DNA of 64,000 nt. Origin: Variovorax paradoxus (GTDB lineage Bacteria > Pseudomonadota > Gammaproteobacteria > Burkholderiales > Burkholderiaceae_C). Position 1 is the stretch's first letter. Each line of letters begins with the position of its first letter. Positions 1,960-21,039 of the stretch are shown one piece after another. Position numbers and translations under genes: made by a program. The notes under the pieces were generated by a model that was not told the origin of the DNA, ran no database searches, and saw only the letters and a program-made list of their open reading frames with translations. The stretch is taken from positions 4,886,501 through 4,950,500 of the forward strand of contig NZ_JAUSXL010000002.1 of the NCBI RefSeq assembly GCF_030815975.1, read 5' to 3'.

Positions 1960-2459
1960 CGCGCCGCGGGCCGGCGAAGCAGCAGCACGAGCAGCAGAAC
2001 CGCCAGCACCACGAAGGCAATGAACGACCAGTTGGCCAGCGTCAGGCCGAGCAGCGACCAGTCGACCTTCGAGCAATCACCGCCGCCGCGAAAGATCATC
2101 GGCAACGCCCGCTTGAGCGGAAAGGTCTCGATCATTCCGTAGAGGTCGCGCCCGCAGGTCACGACCTCGGGCGGATTCCACTGGAGCCAGCTTTGCGAGG
2201 CCGCCGTGTAGGCGCCGCCAATGGCCGACACCAGCGCCAGAACACCGCCCGTTGCCTGCAGGCCACGGCTCCTGAACACGCCGGCCAGGCCGGTGAACAG
2301 CGCCACCAGCACCAGCGCATAGCGCTGCACGATGCACATGGGGCAAGGCTCGAGGCCGACCACGTGCTGCAGGTAGAGCCCGAAGGCCAGCATCAGGACG
2401 CAGGCCAGGCAGATCAGCCCATACGCGCGGCGCGGCGCGCCGAAGTACCAATCGATCAA
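1929..2459 (-). CDS. dsbB: Disulfide bond formation protein B
   Basis: DsbB is an inner-membrane quinone reductase that reoxidises DsbA. The sequence has four hydrophobic segments, the first periplasmic CPMC active site (motif [12 protein letters not shown]) and a second cysteine pair in VTCGRDL and GGDCSK. A start was chosen at TTG 2459, giving MIDWYFG, which overlaps the cysA stop in TTGA. A second TTG at 2471 would add four residues. Coupling to cysA suggests co-expression with the sulfate transporter. The 3' end runs 31 bp antisense into the ParA-like gene. Confidence 0.9.
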
Positions 2460-3553
2460 GGGGAAACCCAATCTTCTTCTACGAACACCCGGGCCTTGCG
2501 CGGGGTGGCGACGACGGTGTCGCCCTCCTGCAGGCCCAGTTCACGGAACTGTTGCGCAGGGAGTTGCGCCTCGATGATGGTTCCGGAGCCCGGATTATCT
2601 GGATTCGTTTCGGTGGGCTCAAGTTCCAGCCGTGCGATCGGGCCGACCACGATGGCGCGCGACAAGGTGGCCACGATGCCGGTGGCGCCGGCGGTGTAGC
2701 GCTCCACGGTAAGGTCGTGCGGGCGCACGTAGGCCATCGCCTTGGCGTCGCGCGCGCCGCTGTGTTCGGGCGAATCCAGGCGCATGCCGTCCAGCTGCAC
2801 CGCGCCGTTGTCGGCCCGGCCATGGAACAGGTTGACGTCGCCCAGGAAGCCGTAGACGAACGGGCTCGCGGGCTGGTCCCACACCTCCTGCGGGGAGCCG
2901 ACCTGTTCGATGCGGCCCTTGTTGATGACCACCACGCGGTCGGCCACCTCGAGCGCCTCTTCCTGGTCGTGCGTGACGAAGATGGAGGTGACGTGCAGTT
3001 CGTCATGCAGCCGGCGCAGCCAGCGGCGCAACTCCTTGCGCACCTTCGCGTCGAGCGCGCCGAAGGGCTCGTCGAGCAGCAGCACCTTGGGCTCCACCGC
3101 CAGCGCACGCGCCAACGCGATGCGCTGCCGCTGGCCGCCCGAGAGCTGCGAAGGATAGCGGTCGGCCAGCCAGTCGAGCTGCACCAGCTTGAGCAGATCG
3201 GTCACCTTCTGCCTGATCTGCGCGTCGCTCGGGCGCTCCTTGCGCGGCTTCACGCGCAGGCCGAAGGCGACGTTCTCGAACACCGTCATGTGGCGGAACA
3301 GCGCGTAGTGCTGGAACACGAAGCCGACCTGCCGTTCGCGCACGTGCACGTCGGTGGTGTCTTCGCCCGAAAAGAGAATGCTGCCGGTGTCGGCCGTTTC
3401 CAGCCCCGCGATGATGCGCAGCAGCGTGGTCTTGCCGCAGCCCGAGGGGCCGAGCAGCGCGACGAGCTCGCCCGACTCCACGTCGAGGTTCACGTTGTTC
3501 AGCGCCCGGAAGTCGCCGAACTGCTTGCTGATGTTGCGGATTTCGATGCTCAT
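2456..3553 (-). CDS. cysA: Sulfate/thiosulfate ABC transporter ATP-binding protein
   Basis: CysA is the ATPase of the CysTWA-Sbp sulfate/thiosulfate importer. The 365-residue protein has Walker A GPSGCGKT at about residues 35-42, the LSGGQRQR signature, Walker [12 protein letters not shown] and a C-terminal regulatory TOBE-like region. ATG 3553 begins [12 protein letters not shown], the usual start; the frame is open further upstream but without family similarity. It is the last transporter gene in the string sbp-cysT-cysW-cysA and is separated from cysW by 86 bp containing a REP-like hairpin. dsbB follows with an overlap. Confidence 0.96.
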
Positions 3554-3584
3554 GGATCTCTGCCTGTGTCTTCCTCTGATGACT

Positions 3585-3639: not shown

Positions 3640-4533
3640 TCAAGCCGCCGTGGGCCGCTCGGGCGGCAGTTCGGCAATCGCCTTCATCTCGCGTTCGTGG
3701 CGCCACTCGATAACCGACTTGATCACCAGCGTGACCAGCGCCAGGATGGCGAGCAGCGAGGCCACGGCAAAGGCCGCCACCGACTGGTATTCGTTGTAGA
3801 GCACTTCCACATGCAGCGGCATGGTGTTGGTCTGGCCGCGGATGTGGCCCGACACCACCGACACCGCGCCGAACTCGCCCATGGCGCGCGCATTGCAAAG
3901 AATCACGCCGTACAGCAGGCCCCACTTGATGTTGGGCAGGGTCACGCGCCAGAAGGTCTGCCAGCCGGTCGCGCCCAGCACGATGGCGGCCTGCTCTTCG
4001 TCGGTGCCCTGCGCCTGCATCAGCGGCACGAGTTCGCGCGCGATGAACGGGAAGGTCACGAACACGGTCGCCAGCACGATGCCGGGCACGGCAAAGATGA
4101 TCTTGATGTCGTGCTCGGCCAGCCACGGGCCGAGCCAGCCCTGCGCGCCGAACACCAGCACGTAGATCAGGCCCGCCACCACCGGCGACACCGCGAACGG
4201 CAGGTCCACCAGCGTGGTCAGGAAGGCCTTGCCGCGGAACTCGAACTTGGCGATGGCCCAGGCCGCGGCCACGCCGAACACCAGGTTCAGCGGCACCGCG
4301 ATGGCGGCCGTGATCAGCGTGAGGCGGATCGCGCTCCAGGCGTCGGGCTCCTTCAGCGCCTCGATATAGGCATCGAGGCCCTTGCGCAAGGCTTCCGTGG
4401 CCACGGCGGCCAGGGGCAGCACGAGGAACAGGAACATGAACGCGAGCGCAAGGCCGATCAGCGTCCAGCGCACCCAGGGCGATTCGGTGGTGCCGGCCTG
4501 CGCGCGGCGAATGATTTTGGAAGGCGCACTCAT
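3640..4533 (-). CDS. cysW: Sulfate ABC transporter permease CysW
   Basis: CysW is one of the two inner-membrane permeases of the sulfate/thiosulfate importer. The 297-residue protein has about six hydrophobic segments and an EAA-like cytoplasmic loop ([21 protein letters not shown]) that contacts CysA. The motif [16 protein letters not shown] is characteristic of CysW. The start ATG at 4533 lies 1 bp after the cysT stop, so the genes are probably translationally coupled. Most similar alternatives would be molybdate permeases (ModB), but pairing with cysT and sbp makes CysW clear. Confidence 0.96.
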
Positions 4534-4534
4534 C

Positions 4535-5422
4535 TCATGCTCCTGCGCGCTTGCGCTGCCAGGCCTGAAGGCCGTTGATGACCAGCAGCAGGATGAATGA
4601 AATGACCAACATCACCAGCGCGACTGCGGTGGCGCCCGCATAGTCGTACTGCTCCAGCTTGCCGATGATGATGAGCGGCGTGATCTCCGAGATCATCGGC
4701 ATGTTGCCGGCAATGAAGATCACCGAGCCGTACTCGCCGATGGCGCGCGCGAAAGCCATCGCAAAGCCGGTGAGCAATGCCGGCGCAATCGACGGAAAGA
4801 TCACCTTCGTGAAGGTCTGCAGCCGCGTCGCGCCCAGCGAAGTGGCGGCTTCTTCGAGCTCCTTCTCGGCATCTTCGAGCACCGGCTGCACCGTGCGCAC
4901 CACGAACGGCAGCCCGATGAAGATCAGCGCAATCACGATGCCCGCGGGCGTGAACGCCAGCTTGATGCCGTGCGGCTCCAGCAGTTGCCCGACCCAGCCG
5001 TTGCCCGCGAGCAGCGCGGTCAGCGAGATGCCGGCCACCGCCGTCGGCAGTGCGAACGGCAGATCGACCAGCGCGTCGACGATGCGCTTGCCCGGGAACT
5101 TGTAGCGCACCAGCACCCAGGCCACGAGCAGGCCGAACACGGCGTTGACCACGGCCGCGATCAGCGAGGCGCCGAACGTGAGCCGGTACGAGGCCATCAC
5201 GCGCGGCGCGGTCACGGCCACCCAGAACTGCTCCCAGCTCAGCGTGAAGGTCTTGAAGACCAGCGCCGAGAGTGGAATCAAGACGATCAGGCTCAGGTAG
5301 AGGATCGAGAAGCCGAGCGTGATGTGGAAACCAGGCAGCACGCGCCTGGCGCCGCCGGCCCGGTTGGCACGCGCAAAAGGCGCTCCCGCGGACGGGAGCG
5401 CCGAAGAAACAGCGCCGCTCAT
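4535..5422 (-). CDS. cysT: Sulfate ABC transporter permease CysT (CysU)
   Basis: CysT is the second permease of the sulfate importer and forms the membrane channel with CysW. The 295-residue protein has six predicted membrane segments after a short polar N-terminus. It carries the EAA-like loop [19 protein letters not shown] and the conserved block [17 protein letters not shown]. Its start codon abuts the sbp stop codon (5422/5423), indicating one transcript and likely coupling. Confidence 0.96.
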
Positions 5423-6439
5423 TTACTTTGCGCCAGGGGTGTAGAGCTTGTCGAACTGGCCGCCGTCGTTGAAGTGCACCTTCTGTGCTTCGCCGAGGCT
5501 GCCGAACAGTTCCTGCACCGTGAACAGCTGCAGCGGCTTGAAGGTGGTGGCGTACTTCTTGAGCACGGCCTGCGAGCGCGGGCGCAGCGCATGCCTGGCC
5601 GCGATCTCCTGCGCTTCTTCGGAGTAGAGCCAGTCGAGGTAGGCCTTGGCGAGTTCGCCGGTGCCCTTCTTTTTGGTGCTGCGCTCGACCACGGCCACCG
5701 GGTTCTCGGCCACGATGCTGATCGACGGGTAGACCGAGTCGACCTTGCCCGAACCGAATTCGCGATCGATCGACACCACTTCGGATTCGAAGGTGATCAG
5801 CGCATCGCCGATGTTGCGCTGCAGGAAGGCGGTGGTCGCGTCGCGGCCGCCGCGTGCCAGCACCGGCACGTTCTTGAACAGCTTGCCAACGAACTCGGCC
5901 GCCTGGGCGTCGGTGCCGCCCTTCTTCTTGACGTAGCCCCAGGCCGCCAGGTAGGCGTAGCGCCCGTTGCCGCCGGTCTTGGGGTTGACGATCACGACCT
6001 GCACGCCGGGCTTGACCAGGTCGTCCCAGTCCTTGATGCCCTTGGGGTTGCCGTTGCGCACCAGGAACAGCATGGTCGAGGTGGTGGGCGATGCGTTCTC
6101 GGGGAATTGCTTGTTCCAGTCCTTCGCGACCACGCCGGCATTGGCAAGAAAGTCGATGTCGGTGGAGGTGTTCATGGTCACCACGTCGGCATCGAGGCCG
6201 TCGGCCACGGCGCGCGCCTGGGCGCTGGAGCCGCCGTGCGACTGGTCGATCTTCACGTCCTTGCCGGTGGTCTTCTTGTAGTTGGCCACGAACGCCGCGT
6301 TGTAGTCCTTGTAGAACTCGCGCGCCACGTCGTAGGAGGCGTTCAGCAGCGTGGTGCCCTGCGCGAAGGCGCTGCTGCCGGCGAGTGCCGAAGACGCCAG
6401 CGCGAGCACGGCGGCGAAGGTCTTGAATCTGGAAGTCAT
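5423..6439 (-). CDS. sbp: Periplasmic sulfate-binding protein (first copy)
   Basis: Sbp captures sulfate in the periplasm and delivers it to CysTWA. The 338-residue protein begins with a Sec signal peptide ending near SSAFAQ. The mature protein starts LLNASYDVAREFYKDYN, and it contains the sulfate-contact motif QSHGGSSAQARAV and the conserved [13 protein letters not shown]. The mature chain has no cysteine and only two methionines. Its ATG overlaps the stop of the upstream hydrolase by 4 bp. A second copy lies at 19949-20989. Confidence 0.96.
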   Translation of the reverse strand: MTSRFKTFAAVLALASSALAGSSAFAQGTTLLNASYDVAREFYKDYNAAFVANYKKTTGKDVKIDQSHGGSSAQARAVADGLDADVVTMNTSTDIDFLANAGVVAKDWNKQFPENASPTTSTMLFLVRNGNPKGIKDWDDLVKPGVQVVIVNPKTGGNGRYAYLAAWGYVKKKGGTDAQAAEFVGKLFKNVPVLARGGRDATTAFLQRNIGDALITFESEVVSIDREFGSGKVDSVYPSISIVAENPVAVVERSTKKKGTGELAKAYLDWLYSEEAQEIAARHALRPRSQAVLKKYATTFKPLQLFTVQELFGSLGEAQKVHFNDGGQFDKLYTPGAK

Positions 6440-14418: not shown

Positions 14419-14634
14419 TCAGAGCTTCGCGATCGAAACCTCCGTCGACTTCACGAGCGCGACCACGTCGGAGCCCACCTTGAGCTGCAGCTCGTCGACC
14501 GAGCGCGTAGTGATGACCGAGGTCACGATGCCCCAGGCGGTTTCGACGTCGACTTCGGAGACGACGTCGCCGCGGATGATCTCGCGGACTTTGCCCTTGA
14601 ACTGGTTGCGGACGTTGATGGCTTGGATGGACAT
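14419..14634 (-). CDS. Molbindin (TOBE-domain molybdopterin/molybdate-binding protein)
   Basis: The 71-residue protein is a single Mop/TOBE domain, with the typical pattern INVRNQFKGKV, AWGIVTSVITTRSVDEL and LVKSTEVSIAKL. Molbindins form hexamers that store molybdate in the cytoplasm. ATG 14634 gives the usual start. It lies 105 bp downstream of ssuB and just before a terminator, so it may be the last gene of the sulfonate operon. Because molybdate resembles sulfate, its presence here is notable but its role is inferred. Confidence 0.9.
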   Translation of the reverse strand: MSIQAINVRNQFKGKVREIIRGDVVSEVDVETAWGIVTSVITTRSVDELQLKVGSDVVALVKSTEVSIAKL

Positions 14635-14739
14635 GATGTTTCTTTCTCTTTGAGGTTGAAGGAAGGGTTCGGGTAGGAGAAACAAGGGCGACACGGGCAA
14701 GGCGGTCGCTCTTTTCTTTTCTGTGGATGAACGACGGGT

Positions 14740-15561
14740 TCAGATCGCCCAGCGCAACGTGTGCGCGGAGGGCTGCAGCCAGTTGGCGTCCGTGCCGGTG
14801 GGCTCGGCCTCCCCCGACTTCTGCAGCACGCGGTCGAGAATGCGTTTCTCGATGGCCGCGAACGCCGGATCGCCCTGAGAGCGCGGCCTGGCGAGCGCAA
14901 TGTTCTCGTCGAGCGCAATGCGCCCGTCCTCGATCAGGATCACGCGGTCCGCGAGCGCCACGGCCTCCTGCACGTCATGCGTCACCAGCAGCGCGGTGAA
15001 GCGGTGGCGCTGCCAGAGGTTCTCGATGAGGCGGTGCATCTCGATGCGCGTGAGCGCGTCGAGCGCGCCCAGCGGCTCGTCCAGCAGCAGCAGGCGCGGG
15101 TGATGCACCAGCGCCCGCGCGAGCGACACCCGCTGGCGCTGTCCACCCGACAGGCGCGCCGGCCATTCGTTCTCGCGGTCGGCCAGGCCCACCTGCGCGA
15201 GCACTTCCTTGCCACGCGCCGTGGCGTCATTAGGCAAGCCGAGCGTCACGTTGTCGAGCACCCGGCGCCAGGGCAGGAGGCGCGCCTCCTGGAACATGAT
15301 CCGGGTGTCGTCGTGCAGGCCGTCAATGGCCTTGCCGTCCGTGAAGAGCCCGCCGGAGTTGGCCTCTTCGAGCCCGGCGACGAGCCGCAGCAGCGTGCTT
15401 TTGCCGCAGCCGCTGCGCCCGACGATGGCGATGAACTGCCCCGGATCGATGCTGAGCTGGGTGTTGCGCAGTACCTCGCGCGCGCCATAACGCTTGTGCA
15501 GGCCGCGCGCTTCGAGGCGCACGCCGCCGGCGATGAGGGGGGAGTCTTTGACGGCATTCAT
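14740..15561 (-). CDS. ssuB: Aliphatic sulfonate ABC transporter ATP-binding protein
   Basis: SsuB energises sulfonate import by SsuABC. The 273-residue protein has Walker A GRSGCGKS (48-55), the Q-loop [11 protein letters not shown], signature LSGGQRQR and Walker [26 protein letters not shown] is typical of the nitrate/sulfonate/taurine importer class. It is separated from ssuC by 238 bp that hold a large inverted repeat, which is unusual for genes whose products form one complex. Confidence 0.95.
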
Positions 15562-15799: not shown

Positions 15800-16654
15800 T
15801 CACTTCGCCGTCTTCTTCTGGTAGCCAGGATGCCAGCGCAGCCACCATTGCTCCAGCCCGCGCGCGAACAGGTCGGCCAGCTTGCCGAGCAGCGCATACA
15901 GCAGGATGCCCACGAGCACGATGTCGGTCTGCAGGAACTCGCGGGCGTTCATCGTGAGATAGCCGATGCCGGCCTGCGCCGAGATGGTTTCGGCCACGAT
16001 CAAGATCACCCACATCAGCCCGAGCGAAAAGCGCAGGCCCACCAGGATGGACGACAGCGCACCGGGCAGGATCACCTCGCGGTACAGCTGCCAGCGCGAC
16101 AGGCCGTAGGTGCGCCCCATCTCGATCAGTTGCGGATCGACGTTGCGGATGCCGTGAAAGGTGTTGAGGTAGATCGGAAAGAACACCGACACCGAGATCA
16201 AAAACAGCTTGGCCGACTCGTCGATGCCGAACCACAGGATCACGAGCGGAATGAGCGCCAGCGCGGGAATGTTGCGCACCATCTGGATGGTCGAGTCGAG
16301 CAGCGTCTCGAAGAACTTCACCGAACCTGTCAAGAGGCCCAGCACCAGCCCCGTTCCGCCGCCGATCGCAAGCCCCGCCAGTGCGCGTCCCGCGCTCACC
16401 TTGACGTGCGTCCAGAGCTCGCCCGACACGGCCAGCGCCCACGCGGCCTTGACCACGTCCACCGGTGCCGGCAGCACCCGCGTGGAGAGCCAGCCCAGCG
16501 ATGAAGCAATCTGCCAGAAGACGATCAGCCCCACCGGCACGAGCCACGGCACCAGCCGCCCCGCCACATTGGCGCCGAAGGCCTTGAGCGCGCCGCCGGC
16601 GTTTTCTTCTCGTGAAGGCGCGACCGCCGGCAGTTCCTGCACTTGTTCCGTCAT
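15800..16654 (-). CDS. ssuC: Aliphatic sulfonate ABC transporter permease
   Basis: SsuC forms the membrane channel for sulfonate import. The 284-residue protein has about six hydrophobic segments, with the EAA-like loop YGLSRWQLYREVILPGALSS that docks on SsuB. ATG 16654 (MTEQVQELP) lies 14 bp after the ssuD stop. The sequence belongs to the BPD-transporter family used for nitrate, sulfonate and taurine; the adjacent ssuD and ssuA fix the substrate class. Confidence 0.95.
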   Translation of the reverse strand: MTEQVQELPAVAPSREENAGGALKAFGANVAGRLVPWLVPVGLIVFWQIASSLGWLSTRVLPAPVDVVKAAWALAVSGELWTHVKVSAGRALAGLAIGGGTGLVLGLLTGSVKFFETLLDSTIQMVRNIPALALIPLVILWFGIDESAKLFLISVSVFFPIYLNTFHGIRNVDPQLIEMGRTYGLSRWQLYREVILPGALSSILVGLRFSLGLMWVILIVAETISAQAGIGYLTMNAREFLQTDIVLVGILLYALLGKLADLFARGLEQWWLRWHPGYQKKTAK

Positions 16655-16668
16655 GGGAGAGATCCTTC

Positions 16669-17838
16669 CTAGCTTTGGGAAGCGAAGCGCGAAGGCGCAT
16701 CGAGATTGGCAACGACTTCGCCGAACGGTCCGCTCAGCGAGCCGCCCGCGAGCCGTGCCTGCGCCTTGCGCGAGAGCAGCGGGAACACCAGTTCGGCGAA
16801 GCGGTAGGCCTCTTCGAGATGCGGATAGCCCGAGAGAATGAATTTGTCGAGGCCGAGCGCCGCGTATTCCTCGATGCGCGCCGCCACGGTCTTCGGGTCG
16901 CCCACCAGCGCCGTGCCCGCGCCGCCGCGTACCAGGCCGACACCGGCCCAGAGGTTGGGCGAGATCTCCAGCTCGGCGCGCGAGCGCCTGGCACCGCCCG
17001 CATGCAGCGCGGCCATGCGGCGCTGGCCTTCGGAGTCCATGCGCGCAAAGGCGGCCTGGGCGCGGATCACGGTCTCGTCGTCGACACGGCTGATCAATTC
17101 TTCCGCGGCCTTCCATGCGGCGTCTTCCGTCTCGCGCACGATCACATGCAGCCGGATGCCGAACTCCACCGTGCGGCCCTTGCGCGCGGCGCGGTTGCGC
17201 ACGTCGGCGATCTTCCTGGCCACCTCGGTGGGTGGTTCGCCCCAGGTGAGGTAGGCATCGACCTGCTCGGCCGCAAGCTCGTGCGCGGCGGCCGACGAGC
17301 CGCCGAACCATATCGGCGGATAGGGTTCCTGCACCGGCGGATAGAGCAGCTTCGCGCCCTTTACGCGGAGGTGCCGGCCTTCGTAGTCGAAGGCCTGGCC
17401 GCTGTGGCTGCGCACAAGAATCTCGCGCCAGATGCGGATGAACTCGGCCGATTGCTCGTAGCGCGCCGCATGGTCCAGGTACACGCCGTCGCCTTCGAGC
17501 TCGGCCTGGTCGCCGCCGGTGACCAGGTTCACCAGCAGGCGGCCGCCCGAGAGGCGATCGAAGGTCGCGGCCATGCGCGCGGCCAGGCTGGGCTGGTGCA
17601 GGCCGGGCCGCACTGCCACCAGGAACTTGAGTTTCGTCGTCGCGCCGATCAGGCTCGAGGCGATCACCCACGGGTCTTCGCACGAACGGCCGGTGGGAAT
17701 CAGCACGCCTTCGTAGCCGAGGCTGTCGGCCGCGCCCGCGATCTGCTGCAGGTAGGCCAGGTCGATCGGCCGCGCGCCTTCGCTGGTGCCGAGATAGCGG
17801 CTGTCGCCGTGCGTGGGGAGAAACCAGAATATCTGCAT
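16669..17838 (-). CDS. ssuD: FMNH2-dependent alkanesulfonate monooxygenase
   Basis: SsuD cleaves the C-S bond of alkanesulfonates with FMNH2 and oxygen, releasing an aldehyde and sulfite for CysI. The 389-residue luciferase-like TIM barrel begins [17 protein letters not shown] and has the conserved stretches [23 protein letters not shown] and NLVTGGD. Reduced flavin would come from SsuE in the same operon. The gene lies between a 50-codon ORF and ssuC. Confidence 0.97.
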
Positions 17839-17858: not shown

Positions 17859-18011
17859 TCAGATGGCAAAGAAGAAGCCGCGCACGCGGGGCAGCGCGCA
17901 GCGCGGGCGCCGCAATGCAGCCTGCGTGCGCCGCGGCTCGGGAATGCCCCAGGCGCGCGTGGTCGTGGCGAGCACGCGGGCGGCGCGATCGCGCACTGCG
18001 TCCCGCGTCAC
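17859..18011 (-). CDS. Possible 50-codon ORF coupled to ssuA
   Basis: A GTG start at 18011 overlaps the ssuA stop in the sequence GTGA, and the frame stays open for 50 codons, stopping 20 bp before ssuD. The predicted peptide is arginine-rich with one cysteine and a hydrophobic end (RGFFFAI). It has no recognisable domain. The 4-bp overlap and neat fit between two operon genes argue for translation. The arginine-rich composition is also what a non-coding high-GC frame would give, so this is uncertain. Confidence 0.35.
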
Positions 18012-18967
18012 GCGATTCCCGCCGCGGCGGCCTCGAGCACGTTGATCTTTCGGGGGATCAGCTTCAGGTCGAAGAAGGTGTCGGCGATCTTCTGCTGCTC
18101 GGCAAGAACGGCCCTGGTGATGGAGCCGGTGCCGTAGGCCGCGCGCGCCACCGACAGGTCGGCCACCGGCTTCGGCAAACCCCAGAGGGCGGCCAGCTCG
18201 GTGGCCAGCTCGTTCCTGTTGGCGGTGCCCCAGAGATCGATCTTGTTGATCTCCTCGATCGCGATAGCCAGCACATCGGCGTTCTTTGCCACATAGCCGA
18301 GCGACGAGAAGTAGTAGCCGCGGTTGCCCACCACGCCGGTCGCGTCGGCCAGGACGCGGGCTTCGAGCGATTTCTCGGCGGCGGCAAGGAACGGATCCCA
18401 GATCACCCATGCATCGACCGAGCCCTTCTCGAACGCGGCGCGCGCATCGGCCGGCGGCAGGAAGACGAGGTTCAGGTCGCCGTAGGCAAGGCCGTGCTTC
18501 TCGAGCAGCTTGGCGATGAAGTAGTGGACGTTCGAGCCCTTGTTGAGCGCAACCTTCTTTCCCTTCAGCTCGGCCACGGTCCTGATGGCCGAGCCCCTGG
18601 GCACCAGCACGGCTTCCGATTGGGGCCGCGGCAGTGTGGTGGCCACGTAGGCCAGCGGCGCACCGGCGGCCTGCGCGAAGATGGGCGGCGCCTCGCCCAC
18701 GTCGCCGAAGTCGATGGAGCCGACGTTCAGTGCTTCGAGCTGCACCGGACCGGCGGTGAACTCGGTCCACTTCACAGCCACGCCGAGCGGCGCCAGCCGC
18801 TTCTCGAGCGTGCCGCGGCCCTTGAGGATGCTGAGCGAACCTTTCTGGTTGCCGATGCGCAGCTGGCGCGCCGGCGCCTGGGCCAGCGCGGCGAAGGAAG
18901 GCAATGCGATGGCGGCGGCAGCGGCGCTCTGCAGCAGGCGGCGGCGCGGAATGGAGATGGAAGTCAT
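18008..18967 (-). CDS. ssuA: Sulfonate ABC transporter substrate-binding protein
   Basis: SsuA binds aliphatic sulfonates in the periplasm. The 319-residue protein starts with an RR-containing signal peptide ([13 protein letters not shown], possible Tat substrate) ending near FAALAQA. The mature part has the family blocks [23 protein letters not shown], cited here as [14 protein letters not shown], then [22 protein letters not shown] in part and WVIWDPF. Apart from the initiator there is no methionine, and there is no cysteine at all, a composition expected of a protein made in sulfur starvation. Confidence 0.95.
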
Positions 18968-19002
18968 GAGTTCGTCCTTTTCGAATGCGAATGGAGGCAG
19001 CC

Positions 19003-19137
19003 TCAGGCCGAGATGAAGCCGACGATGAGCGCGATGGCGGTCACCACGATCGTGCTGATGGCCAGGTCTCGCAGCGCCTTCCAGATGGAGCGGGGCTGCG
19101 CGTCGAGCGCGGAGTCTTCGGTGGCAACGGGGTTCAT
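19003..19137 (-). CDS. Small single-pass membrane protein between ssuE and ssuA
   Basis: A 44-codon ORF with an ATG at 19137 encodes a polar N-terminal half (MNPVATEDSALDAQPRS) and one strongly hydrophobic helix (AISTIVVTAIALIVGFISA). This gives a clear small inner-membrane protein topology. It lies 35 bp upstream of ssuA on the same strand. It contains no cysteine and no internal methionine. No function is known to me; an accessory subunit of the sulfonate transporter or a regulator of it is conceivable. Confidence 0.65.
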   Translation of the reverse strand: MNPVATEDSALDAQPRSIWKALRDLAISTIVVTAIALIVGFISA

Positions 19138-19210
19138 GCGTGATTCCTTGTGCAAAAACTTCAGGCAAAGCTGTGCCCGCGACTGCCCAAAGCAGCCAGG
19201 GTCTTTTCTC

Positions 19211-19307
19211 TTTTCGTGAAACACTGCGGAACCGGCTCCGCCGGGCCGCTGGTGTTGCCCCCGGTAGGGGGTTGGCGTAGCGACACGAAGTGCGCGAAGA
19301 CTGGGGG
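19211..19307 (-). repeat. Dispersed ~97-bp repeat, copy 1 (inside ssu operon)
   Basis: Read on the minus strand, this segment runs from CCCCCAGTCTTCGCGCACTT to a GTGTTTCACGAAAA end. It matches 39238-39335 over nearly its whole length, including GCGCACTTCGTGTCGCT, a GGGGGCAACACCAGCGGCC core and a CCGGTTCCGC arm. It contains internal inverted repeats and no ORF. It sits between ssuE and the small membrane ORF. Confidence 0.85.
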
Positions 19308-19318
19308 GCGAGCCAGTG

Positions 19319-19903
19319 CTAAACGCTACATCGCACCTTGGAGAAAGGCACCGGCTCGAAGCCATGCGTGGCCGGCAGCTTCAGCCCTTCGGTCGCGAGC
19401 ACCTCGACGGCCTCGTTGAGCCGCTCGGCCAGGTCGGCATGCACCTGGTAGGCGTTCTCGGGCGTCAGCGCGATCTGCGAATCGGTCGCGTAGACGCCCG
19501 GCAGGATGTGGCGCGCCGAAAGCGCATGCAGCACCGGCCGCAAGGCGTAATCGAGCGCGAGCATGTGGTGCGGGCTGCCGCCGGTGGCCAGCGGCAGCAC
19601 GGTCTTGCCCTTGAGCGCGTTCTGCGCCAGCAGATCGAGAAAAACCTTCAGCACGCCGCTGTAGGCGGCCTTGTAGACCGGCGTAGCCACCACGACCACA
19701 CGTGCATGCGCCACCTGCGCAATCGCACGCTCGATGGCCGGATGGTTCCAGTCGGCCAGGAGCAGCGCCTGGGCCGGCAGGTCGCGGATCGCGAGCCGCT
19801 CGATGTGCGCATGGCGGCCGGCCAGCCGCTCGCCCACGGCCTCGAGCAAGGCGGTGGAGCGCGATGGCGCCGAAGGGCTGCCGGCAATCAGAAGAACGGA
19901 CAC
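19319..19903 (-). CDS. ssuE: NADPH-dependent FMN reductase SsuE
   Basis: SsuE supplies FMNH2 to the SsuD monooxygenase. The 194-residue flavodoxin-like protein begins MSVLLIAGSPSAPSRSTALL and has VVVVATPVYKAAYSGVLKVFLD in the flavin-site position, cited here as VVATPVYKAAYSGVLK. The family block ATGGSPHHMLALDYALRPVL is characteristic of SsuE. It is preceded by sbp2 with a 45-bp gap and is followed by a dispersed repeat. Confidence 0.95.
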   Translation of the reverse strand: MSVLLIAGSPSAPSRSTALLEAVGERLAGRHAHIERLAIRDLPAQALLLADWNHPAIERAIAQVAHARVVVVATPVYKAAYSGVLKVFLDLLAQNALKGKTVLPLATGGSPHHMLALDYALRPVLHALSARHILPGVYATDSQIALTPENAYQVHADLAERLNEAVEVLATEGLKLPATHGFEPVPFSKVRCSV

Positions 19904-19948
19904 GGGAGGCTTTCGGTTTTTTTCGGGATCTTCGGAGCTCGAGGCGGG

Positions 19949-20989
19949 TCAGCGCTGCTTTGCCGTGTAGATCTGGTCGAAGGAGGCGCCGTCCGCGAAG
20001 TGGTCCTTGTCCGCCTTCGCCCAGCCGCCGAAGGCCTGGTCGATGGTCACCAGCGTGAGCTTGGGAAACTGCTTGTCGTACTTGGCCTTGGCCTTCTCCG
20101 AGGTCGGGCGGTAGAAGTTGCGGCCCGCAATGTCCTGGCCTTCGTCCGAATACAGGTACTTGAGGTATTCCTCGGCCACCGCGCGGGTGCCCTTCTTGTC
20201 GACCACCTTGTCGACCACCGCCACTGTGGGTTCGGCCAGGATGGAAATCGACGGCACCACGATCTCGAATTTGTCGGGGCCGAATTCCTTCAGCGCCAGG
20301 AAGGCTTCGTTCTCCCAGGCCAGCAGCACGTCGCCCACGCCGCGCTGCACGAAGGTGATGGTCGAGCCGCGCGCGCCGGTGTCGAGAACGGGCACGTTCT
20401 TGAACAGGCTGCCGATGTATTCCTTGGCCTTGGCGTCGCTGCCGTACTTGCGCTTGGCGAATTCCCAGGCGGCCAGGTAGTTCCAGCGCGCGCCGCCGGA
20501 GGTCTTGGGGTTGGGCGTGATCACCTGCACGCCGGGCTTGACGAGGTCGTCCCAGTCCTTCAGGCCCTTGGGGTTGCCCTTCTTCACCAGGAACACGATG
20601 GTCGAGGTGTAGGGCGCGGAGTTTTGCGGCAGGCGCTTCTGCCAGCCGGCCTTGACGGCCCCGCCGTGCGTGACCAGCGCGTCGATGTCGCCGCCGAGCG
20701 CCAGGGTGGCGACGTCGGCGTCGATGCCGTCGATGATCGAGCGGGCCTGCTTGCCCGAACCGCCGTGCGACTGCTTGATCGTCACGTCCTGGCCGGTCTT
20801 GCCTTTCCAGTATTTGGCAAACGCGCGGTTGTAGTCGACGTAGAGCTCGCGCGTCGGGTCGTACGACACGTTCAGCAGCGTGACGGGAGCCGCGCCCTGC
20901 TGCGCGAACGACGGCAACGCCGTCAGGGCCATGGCACCGGCCACGCCGGCACCCAGGGAAAGCTTGATAAAGTCGCGGCGAAGGCTCAT
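19949..20989 (-). CDS. Sulfate-binding protein, second copy (sulfur-free mature chain)
   Basis: A second Sbp-type protein (346 residues) heads the sulfonate operon. It has a signal peptide with RRDF near the N-terminus and ending PSFAQQ. The mature chain has [31 protein letters not shown] and [13 protein letters not shown], as in the first Sbp. The two methionines of mature Sbp (VVTMNTS and TSTMLF) are replaced here (VATLALG and TSTIVF), leaving no sulfur amino acid after processing. No permease genes of its own are adjacent, so it may feed the CysTWA channel. ATG 20989 was chosen; an upstream ATG adds 18 residues. Confidence 0.93.
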
Positions 20990-21024: not shown

Positions 21025-21039
21025 CGTATTCTGAATACG
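21025..21039. promoter_or_regulatory. Palindromic operator candidate upstream of sbp2 (CysB-like)
   Basis: CGTATTCTGAATACG is a perfect 7-1-7 palindrome 36 bp upstream of the sbp2 start. It matches 12 of 15 positions of the palindrome upstream of cysI at 42823-42837 when that one is read on the other strand. The shared motif suggests one sulfur regulator, probably CysB or a paralogue, which is an inference. Confidence 0.5.

Follow-up and report, generated by a model that had tools for sequence, protein, structure and literature searches.

The stretch considered here is a window of 64,000 nucleotides from Variovorax paradoxus (assembly GCF_030815975.1, contig NZ_JAUSXL010000002.1, positions 4,886,501 to 4,950,500 of the forward strand). 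The question that it raises is why two binding proteins encoded close together in it, the predicted sulfate-binding protein Sbp2 and the aliphatic sulfonate-binding protein SsuA, have no methionine (Met) and no cysteine (Cys) in their mature chains. An earlier note on this DNA had proposed that their operon is tuned for sulfur famine, and that a paralogue, called Sbp1 here, is a constitutive-looking copy without such tuning. We found that the first part of this proposal stands for Sbp2 and SsuA, and that the second does not. The three genes compared are as follows.

19949..20989, minus strand: sbp2, sulfate-binding protein of the E. coli Sbp type, 346 amino acids, 65% identity to E. coli Sbp
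18008..18967, minus strand: ssuA, aliphatic sulfonate-binding protein, 319 amino acids; TIGR01728 SsuA_fam 208.2 bits, cut-off 163.5
5423..6439, minus strand: sbp1, predicted CysP-type sulfate/thiosulfate-binding protein, the comparison gene; two internal Met, no Cys

The score of Sbp2 was well over the cut-offs of two curated models (NF008022, 512.9 against 288 bits; TIGR00971, 466.0 against 155.5), and it also passed the CysP model (331.4 against 308 bits). Sbp2 retains the ligand tryptophan (Trp) in the motif WENEA, which aligns with the Trp of 1SBP, a structure that represents this fold, and was present in 89 of 91 Sbp2-type chains; we take this residue to be Trp192 of 1SBP, the indole donor to the ligand, its position being counted from the alignment. 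From the family model and this ligand site, Sbp2 is predicted to bind sulfate. Its closest named relatives, among the best 80 of 551 loci, were from V. beijingensis and V. paradoxus at 97% identity. SsuA lies beside the other ssu genes and did not reach the narrower model NF008588 (272.4 bits, cut-off 299).

When the translations were counted, the only Met among the 319 residues of SsuA was that at position 1, and there was no Cys. The 346 residues of Sbp2 also contained no Cys, and its two Met, at positions 1 and 20, both fell inside the presumed signal peptide, with cleavage presumed after ...LPSFA. Our recount therefore agreed with the earlier note for SsuA and, given this signal peptide, for mature Sbp2. 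In Sbp1 the internal Met were at positions 89 (VVTMNTS) and 123 (TSTMLF), where Sbp2 reads VATLALG and TSTIVF, again as the note had stated.

The absence was conserved. The 80 loci mentioned above were mainly from Variovorax, with one strain represented three times, so that loci are not independent. Mature Sbp2 was free of Met and Cys in 107 of 109 loci. SsuA was free in 78 of 82, three of which were paralogues under 55% identity, and in 68 of the 69 that were not cut by a locus end. Among the best 120 of 7999 scored homologues for each query, 109 were free for Sbp2, 119 for SsuA and 0 for Sbp1. We also counted a family-wide set, mostly of one genome per genus, in which the Sbp2-type chains were the listed matches minus the 11 of lowest rank and the Sbp1-type chains were 40 of the 48 listed matches, our own copy included. 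Here 85 of the 91 Sbp2-type chains were free, with Cys in none, compared with 1 of the 40 Sbp1-type chains. The earlier note had proposed such a comparison of Sbp2 orthologues; with Met or Cys in only 6 of 91, the sulfur-sparing reading survives it. Two of the best 120 listed homologues had been submitted as "Sulfate starvation-induced protein 2".

In order to clarify whether such compositions are usual in this organism, we used two controls from the same genome. The first consisted of 89 solute-binding proteins from three families (the best 30, 30 and 29 of 129, 34 and 29 matches). Their composition was 2.34% Met and 0.36% Cys, or 2.7 Met+Cys per 100 residues when pooled, and only one of the 89 was free of both. 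This composition predicts 8.5 Met+Cys for mature Sbp2 and 7.8 for mature SsuA; the Poisson probability of zero was 2e-4 and 4e-4, respectively. The second control was a background of genome stretches at roughly fixed spacing, from which 456 open reading frames (ORFs) of at least 200 amino acids were called by a GC3 rule, with approximate starts; these contained 2.26% Met and 1.05% Cys. Among ORFs in which 250 residues or more were counted, one Met+Cys or none was found in 0 of 340 background ORFs and in 10 of 118 from ten targeted stretches, which had been picked for holding or adjoining SsuA-like or low-sulfur binding proteins, three of them (L357, L359 and L360) partly for low Met/Cys itself. 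In all, the sampling reached about 16% of the genome. Thus, the Met/Cys content of Sbp2 and SsuA is conserved and lies far below both the genome and the compartment controls, and it is unlikely that the absence arose by chance.

Then we examined how often Met has been gained. Changes were reconstructed by parsimony on trees of unique sequences, and changes to Met were expressed as a fraction of all changes to Met, Leu, Ile, Val or Phe. This fraction was 8/753 (1.1%) for Sbp2 and 2/386 (0.5%) for SsuA. It was 2.7-2.9% for SsuB (4/148), SsuD (5/177) and SsuE (7/240), and for Sbp1 it was 29/523 (5.5%), which is five times the Sbp2 rate. Two neighbouring non-sulfur genes, MnmC (106/1050, 10.1%) and a transglutaminase-like gene (16/151, 10.6%), gave the largest values. 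That is, compared with these two genes, Met gains were about 10 times rarer in Sbp2 and about 20 times rarer in SsuA. The nominal Fisher P values against SsuB, MnmC and the transglutaminase-like gene pooled (7e-17 for Sbp2 and 4e-12 for SsuA) are descriptive, since changes counted along a tree are partly interdependent.

Next to sbp2 and ssuA stand the other genes of the run, whose order on the minus strand is sbp2, ssuE, an ORF of 44 codons, ssuA, ssuD, ssuC, ssuB and an ssuF-like gene.

19319..19903, minus strand: ssuE, NADPH-dependent flavin mononucleotide (FMN) reductase; TIGR03567 231.4 bits, cut-off 164.05; one internal Met, one Cys
19003..19137, minus strand: ORF of 44 amino acids between ssuE and ssuA; no internal Met or Cys
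16669..17838, minus strand: ssuD, FMNH2-dependent alkanesulfonate monooxygenase; TIGR03565 617.7 bits, cut-off 518.2; three internal Met, one Cys
15800..16654, minus strand: ssuC, sulfonate permease, 284 amino acids, named from its position and sequence character; four internal Met, no Cys
14740..15561, minus strand: ssuB, sulfonate transporter ATPase; two internal Met, one Cys
14419..14634, minus strand: ssuF-like, molybdopterin-binding (TOBE/Mop) protein, 71 amino acids, last gene of the ssu run; no internal Met or Cys

The best match of SsuB was the aliphatic sulfonates ATPase model NF008420, at 359.6 bits and under its cut-off of 395. The ssuF-like protein matched PF03459 (TOBE) and TIGR00638 (Mop; 65.0 bits, cut-off 55), both on the longer ORF 14419-14700. 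The name SsuF comes from Pseudomonas putida. The run from sbp2 to the ssuF-like gene probably forms a single operon.

Among the binding proteins and SsuE, SsuD, SsuC and SsuB, the state free of Met and Cys was limited to the two binding proteins; the other four together hold 13 internal Met+Cys. With the ssuF-like protein added (1206 residues in all), these 13 compare with 39.9 expected, and the sulfate transporter components CysT, CysW and CysA (CysTWA), encoded next to sbp1, had 15 against 31.6. The depletion is thus graded, with the binding proteins affected most, the remaining ssu products less so, and CysTWA about twofold.

Taken comprehensively, sulfur sparing is the best reading of the absence of Met and Cys from Sbp2 and SsuA, and it is well supported by what was observed, namely the composition, its conservation, the scarcity of Met gains and the identities of the genes. 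We give a probability of about 0.82 to the joint reading that this is a sulfur-famine gene run in which Met and Cys are kept out of Sbp2 and SsuA by selection. The run headed by sbp2 would fetch sulfur when sulfate is scarce. Residual sulfate may be bound by Sbp2 and handed to CysTWA, and sulfonates may be imported by SsuA with SsuBC and then desulfurized by SsuDE. The binding proteins would be the most abundant part of such uptake systems, so that each Met or Cys in them would cost the starving cell the very element that it seeks, and because of this cost selection would keep both residues out of the mature chains. The obligatory initiator Met would sit in the signal peptide and be removed by cleavage. 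Weaker selection of the same kind may act on the other products of the operon and on several proteins of other sulfur-scavenging clusters. We infer that the sbp2 run is induced by sulfur limitation, that its binding proteins reach high abundance, and that sulfur economy is the selective cause.

Depletion was also seen elsewhere in the genome, most clearly in a 20-kb unlinked sulfur cluster (L110; G000:C1:432001-452000) that was fetched for its SsuA-like matches. Of its 13 ORFs of at least 200 amino acids, six had no more than one Met+Cys among 275-475 counted residues. They encode two SfnB proteins (610.4 and 595.7 bits, curated cut-off 430.9), an SfnB-like protein under that cut-off, binding proteins of the MetQ/NlpA and NMT1 types, and an amidohydrolase. 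L110 also encodes a luciferase-like monooxygenase. In a second stretch, L104, the count was at most one in 1 of 14 ORFs, an SsuD-like monooxygenase. Since enzymes share the depletion, sulfur economy is favoured over an effect of the compartment.

This bears directly on the explanation least compatible with our data, that oxidation or mis-pairing in the oxidizing periplasm removes Met and Cys. Cys is indeed scarce in the 89 control binding proteins, but these proteins of the same compartment retain their 2.34% Met, and the SfnB-type enzymes of the sulfur cluster are depleted too. We therefore rejected periplasmic oxidation as the cause on the control proteins and regard it as extremely improbable. 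It is only slightly less improbable that the state was inherited without current selection, an ancestral Sbp having lacked Met by chance and constraint having since kept its descendants from regaining Met. Both residues are also missing from mature E. coli Sbp and from the aligned part of Salmonella 1SBP, which does point to an old state. In Sbp2, however, 745 changes led to Leu, Ile, Val or Phe and only 8 to Met; that is, the sequences vary and yet avoid Met.

A general saving of cost, by which abundant exported binding proteins would shun Met and Cys as costly residues, irrespective of the nutrient carried, deserves more weight, although we consider it unlikely. In the same genome, the 319 residues of PstS include only 3 Met and no Cys, the TctC/Bug proteins at the bottom of their range contain 3 Met in 275-278 residues, and an SBP_bac_3 protein lacks Met. 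PstS is induced by shortage of phosphate and not of sulfur, and its poverty in Met suggests that some of the depletion may reflect a thrift common to abundant binding proteins. Against so general a rule, 88 of the 89 control binding proteins retain Met or Cys, three SfnB-type proteins with no binding-protein role are equally depleted, and Sbp1, of the same family and genome, has a fivefold higher share of Met gains than Sbp2.

Besides PstS, several observations weigh against sulfur sparing as we read it. The trait is looser outside the family: of nine Sbp-type chains in a class-wide draw, five had zero and four a single Met. Nine SsuA-like matches were listed for the genome in addition to SsuA; of the seven that were fetched, only three (L004, L005 and L006) had no Met or Cys from the match start onward; L008 had one Met, and L007, L009 and L010 held 21, 5 and 10 Met+Cys. 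In L110, 7 of 13 ORFs, and in L104, 13 of 14, were not depleted to the level described above. The binding protein of an amino-acid-type ATP-binding cassette (ABC) transporter with no known sulfur link was also free of Met and Cys, as were 8 of its 13 relatives, two other relatives having 6 and 7 Met. Its position in the targeted stretch L357 is as follows.

5851-10081 of L357 (G000:C2:3.17-3.18 Mb): amino-acid-type ABC transporter adjoining a 2-oxoglutarate (2OG)-Fe(II) oxygenase with DIOX_N and 2OG-FeII_Oxy domains

This could be a sulfur transporter that has escaped recognition; if it is not, the sulfur-sparing rule leaks. The last of these points concerns a candidate operator in front of sbp2.

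21025..21039, minus strand: CGTATTCAGAATACG, a perfect 7+1+7 palindrome, starting 50 base pairs (bp) upstream of the sbp2 ATG

Among 80 upstream regions, its 15-bp form CGTATTSAGAATACG, with C or G at the centre, occurred in 29, all of them titled Variovorax, and the core TTSAGAAT in 59. Searched genome-wide, the extended motif gave a single exact match, the sbp2 site. In that form the palindrome was rejected as a regulon-wide operator.

We turn now to Sbp1, whose gene leads the run sbp1-cysT-cysW-cysA.

4535..5422, minus strand: cysT, TIGR02139 423.5 bits, cut-off 246.1
3640..4533, minus strand: cysW, TIGR02140 431.3 bits, cut-off 329.1
2456..3553, minus strand: cysA, TIGR00968 410.9 bits, cut-off 342.75 (model run on 2456-3580)

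This order matches the E. coli order cysP-U-W-A. Where Sbp2 has WENEA, Sbp1 carries FESEV, so that Phe replaces the ligand Trp; FE.E was present in all 40 Sbp1-type chains, and the Met of TMN was retained in 38 of the 40. Sbp1 passed both cut-offs with the higher score for the Sbp model (NF008022, 370.5 bits) than for the CysP model (NF008106, 337.3 bits), and it is slightly nearer to E. coli Sbp (50% identity) than to CysP (46%), so that it is not a clear CysP orthologue. "CysP-type" therefore refers to ligand site and gene order and not to family membership. Judged from these two features, Sbp1 is a putative CysP-type paralogue rather than a second, housekeeping version of Sbp2. It is itself poor in Met (2 in 308 residues, P 2e-3). 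E. coli Sbp and CysP are both under CysB control, and a retained Met therefore says little about regulation. The earlier description of Sbp1 as an untuned, constitutive copy was dropped, as nothing supports constitutive expression. What composition does separate is the two sulfate-binding paralogues of the family, the Sbp type and the Met-poor CysP type.

The ORF of 44 codons between ssuE and ssuA matches the beginning, a signal anchor, of another SsuA-like gene in tandem. In the 37 matched loci, 14 copies ran on into a full-length SsuA-like protein, 21 ended after 44-51 codons, and 2 were partial, with the second half only. The pooled pN/pS over 19 stand-alone copies was 0.50, the misaligned L043 included. 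The ORF thus appears to be what is left of the signal anchor of a tandem ssuA paralogue. One locus, L028, judged by eye, resembles a fusion of both tandem ssuA copies. As a further feature of this genome, TctC/Bug-type binding proteins gave 129 matches, a number that is probably high even for this family.

The operon is probably a record of long-standing selection against sulfur in those proteins on which a cell short of sulfur depends most. We tentatively suggest, at somewhat less than even odds, that the sulfur-starvation regulon of Variovorax and its family could be recognised from protein sequence only, by a near-absence of Met and Cys. This mark would cover, besides Sbp2 and SsuA, proteins of unlinked clusters, SfnB-type enzymes included, and would predict unannotated members. 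The members so predicted would include the L110 amidohydrolase, whose gene overlaps that of the NMT1-type binding protein, and the L357 ABC transporter beside its 2-oxoglutarate oxygenase. If the mark holds beyond this genome, sulfur-starvation regulons could become readable from protein sequence with no transcriptomics, and the search for organosulfur transporters and enzymes still unknown in soil and root bacteria would gain a guide.

In E. coli, the same split between paralogues is found. E. coli Sbp has Met only at positions 1 and 18 and no Cys, so that mature Sbp has no Met, whereas CysP has four internal Met. Salmonella 1SBP likewise has the ligand-site Trp, and its aligned part (3-307) lacks Met and Cys. 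Like Sbp1, E. coli CysP carries Phe where the ligand Trp would be (SFESE), stands first before cysU-W-A and has Met at the STM site. The settings of the Sbp genes differ: pfkA and cdh flank sbp in E. coli, and in Variovorax sbp2 precedes the ssu genes. Avoidance of a scarce element by the proteins that serve during its shortage was reportedly seen by Mazel and Marliere in 1989, in the cyanobacterial phycocyanin swap, and is said to hold also for the element cost of assimilatory proteins treated by Baudouin-Cornu in 2001. For sulfur, a report on Rhodococcus qingshengii IGTS8 describes SfnG, TauD, AtsA, MetY and the Dsz enzymes under sulfate starvation as having few or no Met and Cys, an effect, backed by proteomics, that its authors named sulfur sparing (PMC8557817). 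The statement of the earlier note that sulfur-starvation proteins poor in sulfur are known in other microbes has its precedent there. The principle was thus already known (PMC8557817), and E. coli Sbp is equally free of sulfur. The Variovorax proteins are an instance of it in which the trait is unusually well conserved, and what is added here is the family-wide count, the substitution test and the equally depleted proteins, two SfnB among them, of an unlinked sulfur cluster. Comparing the two systems, Rhodococcus is an actinobacterium for which proteomics was used (PMC8557817), and Variovorax is a beta-proteobacterium for which sequences alone were used, with a family count and a substitution test added.

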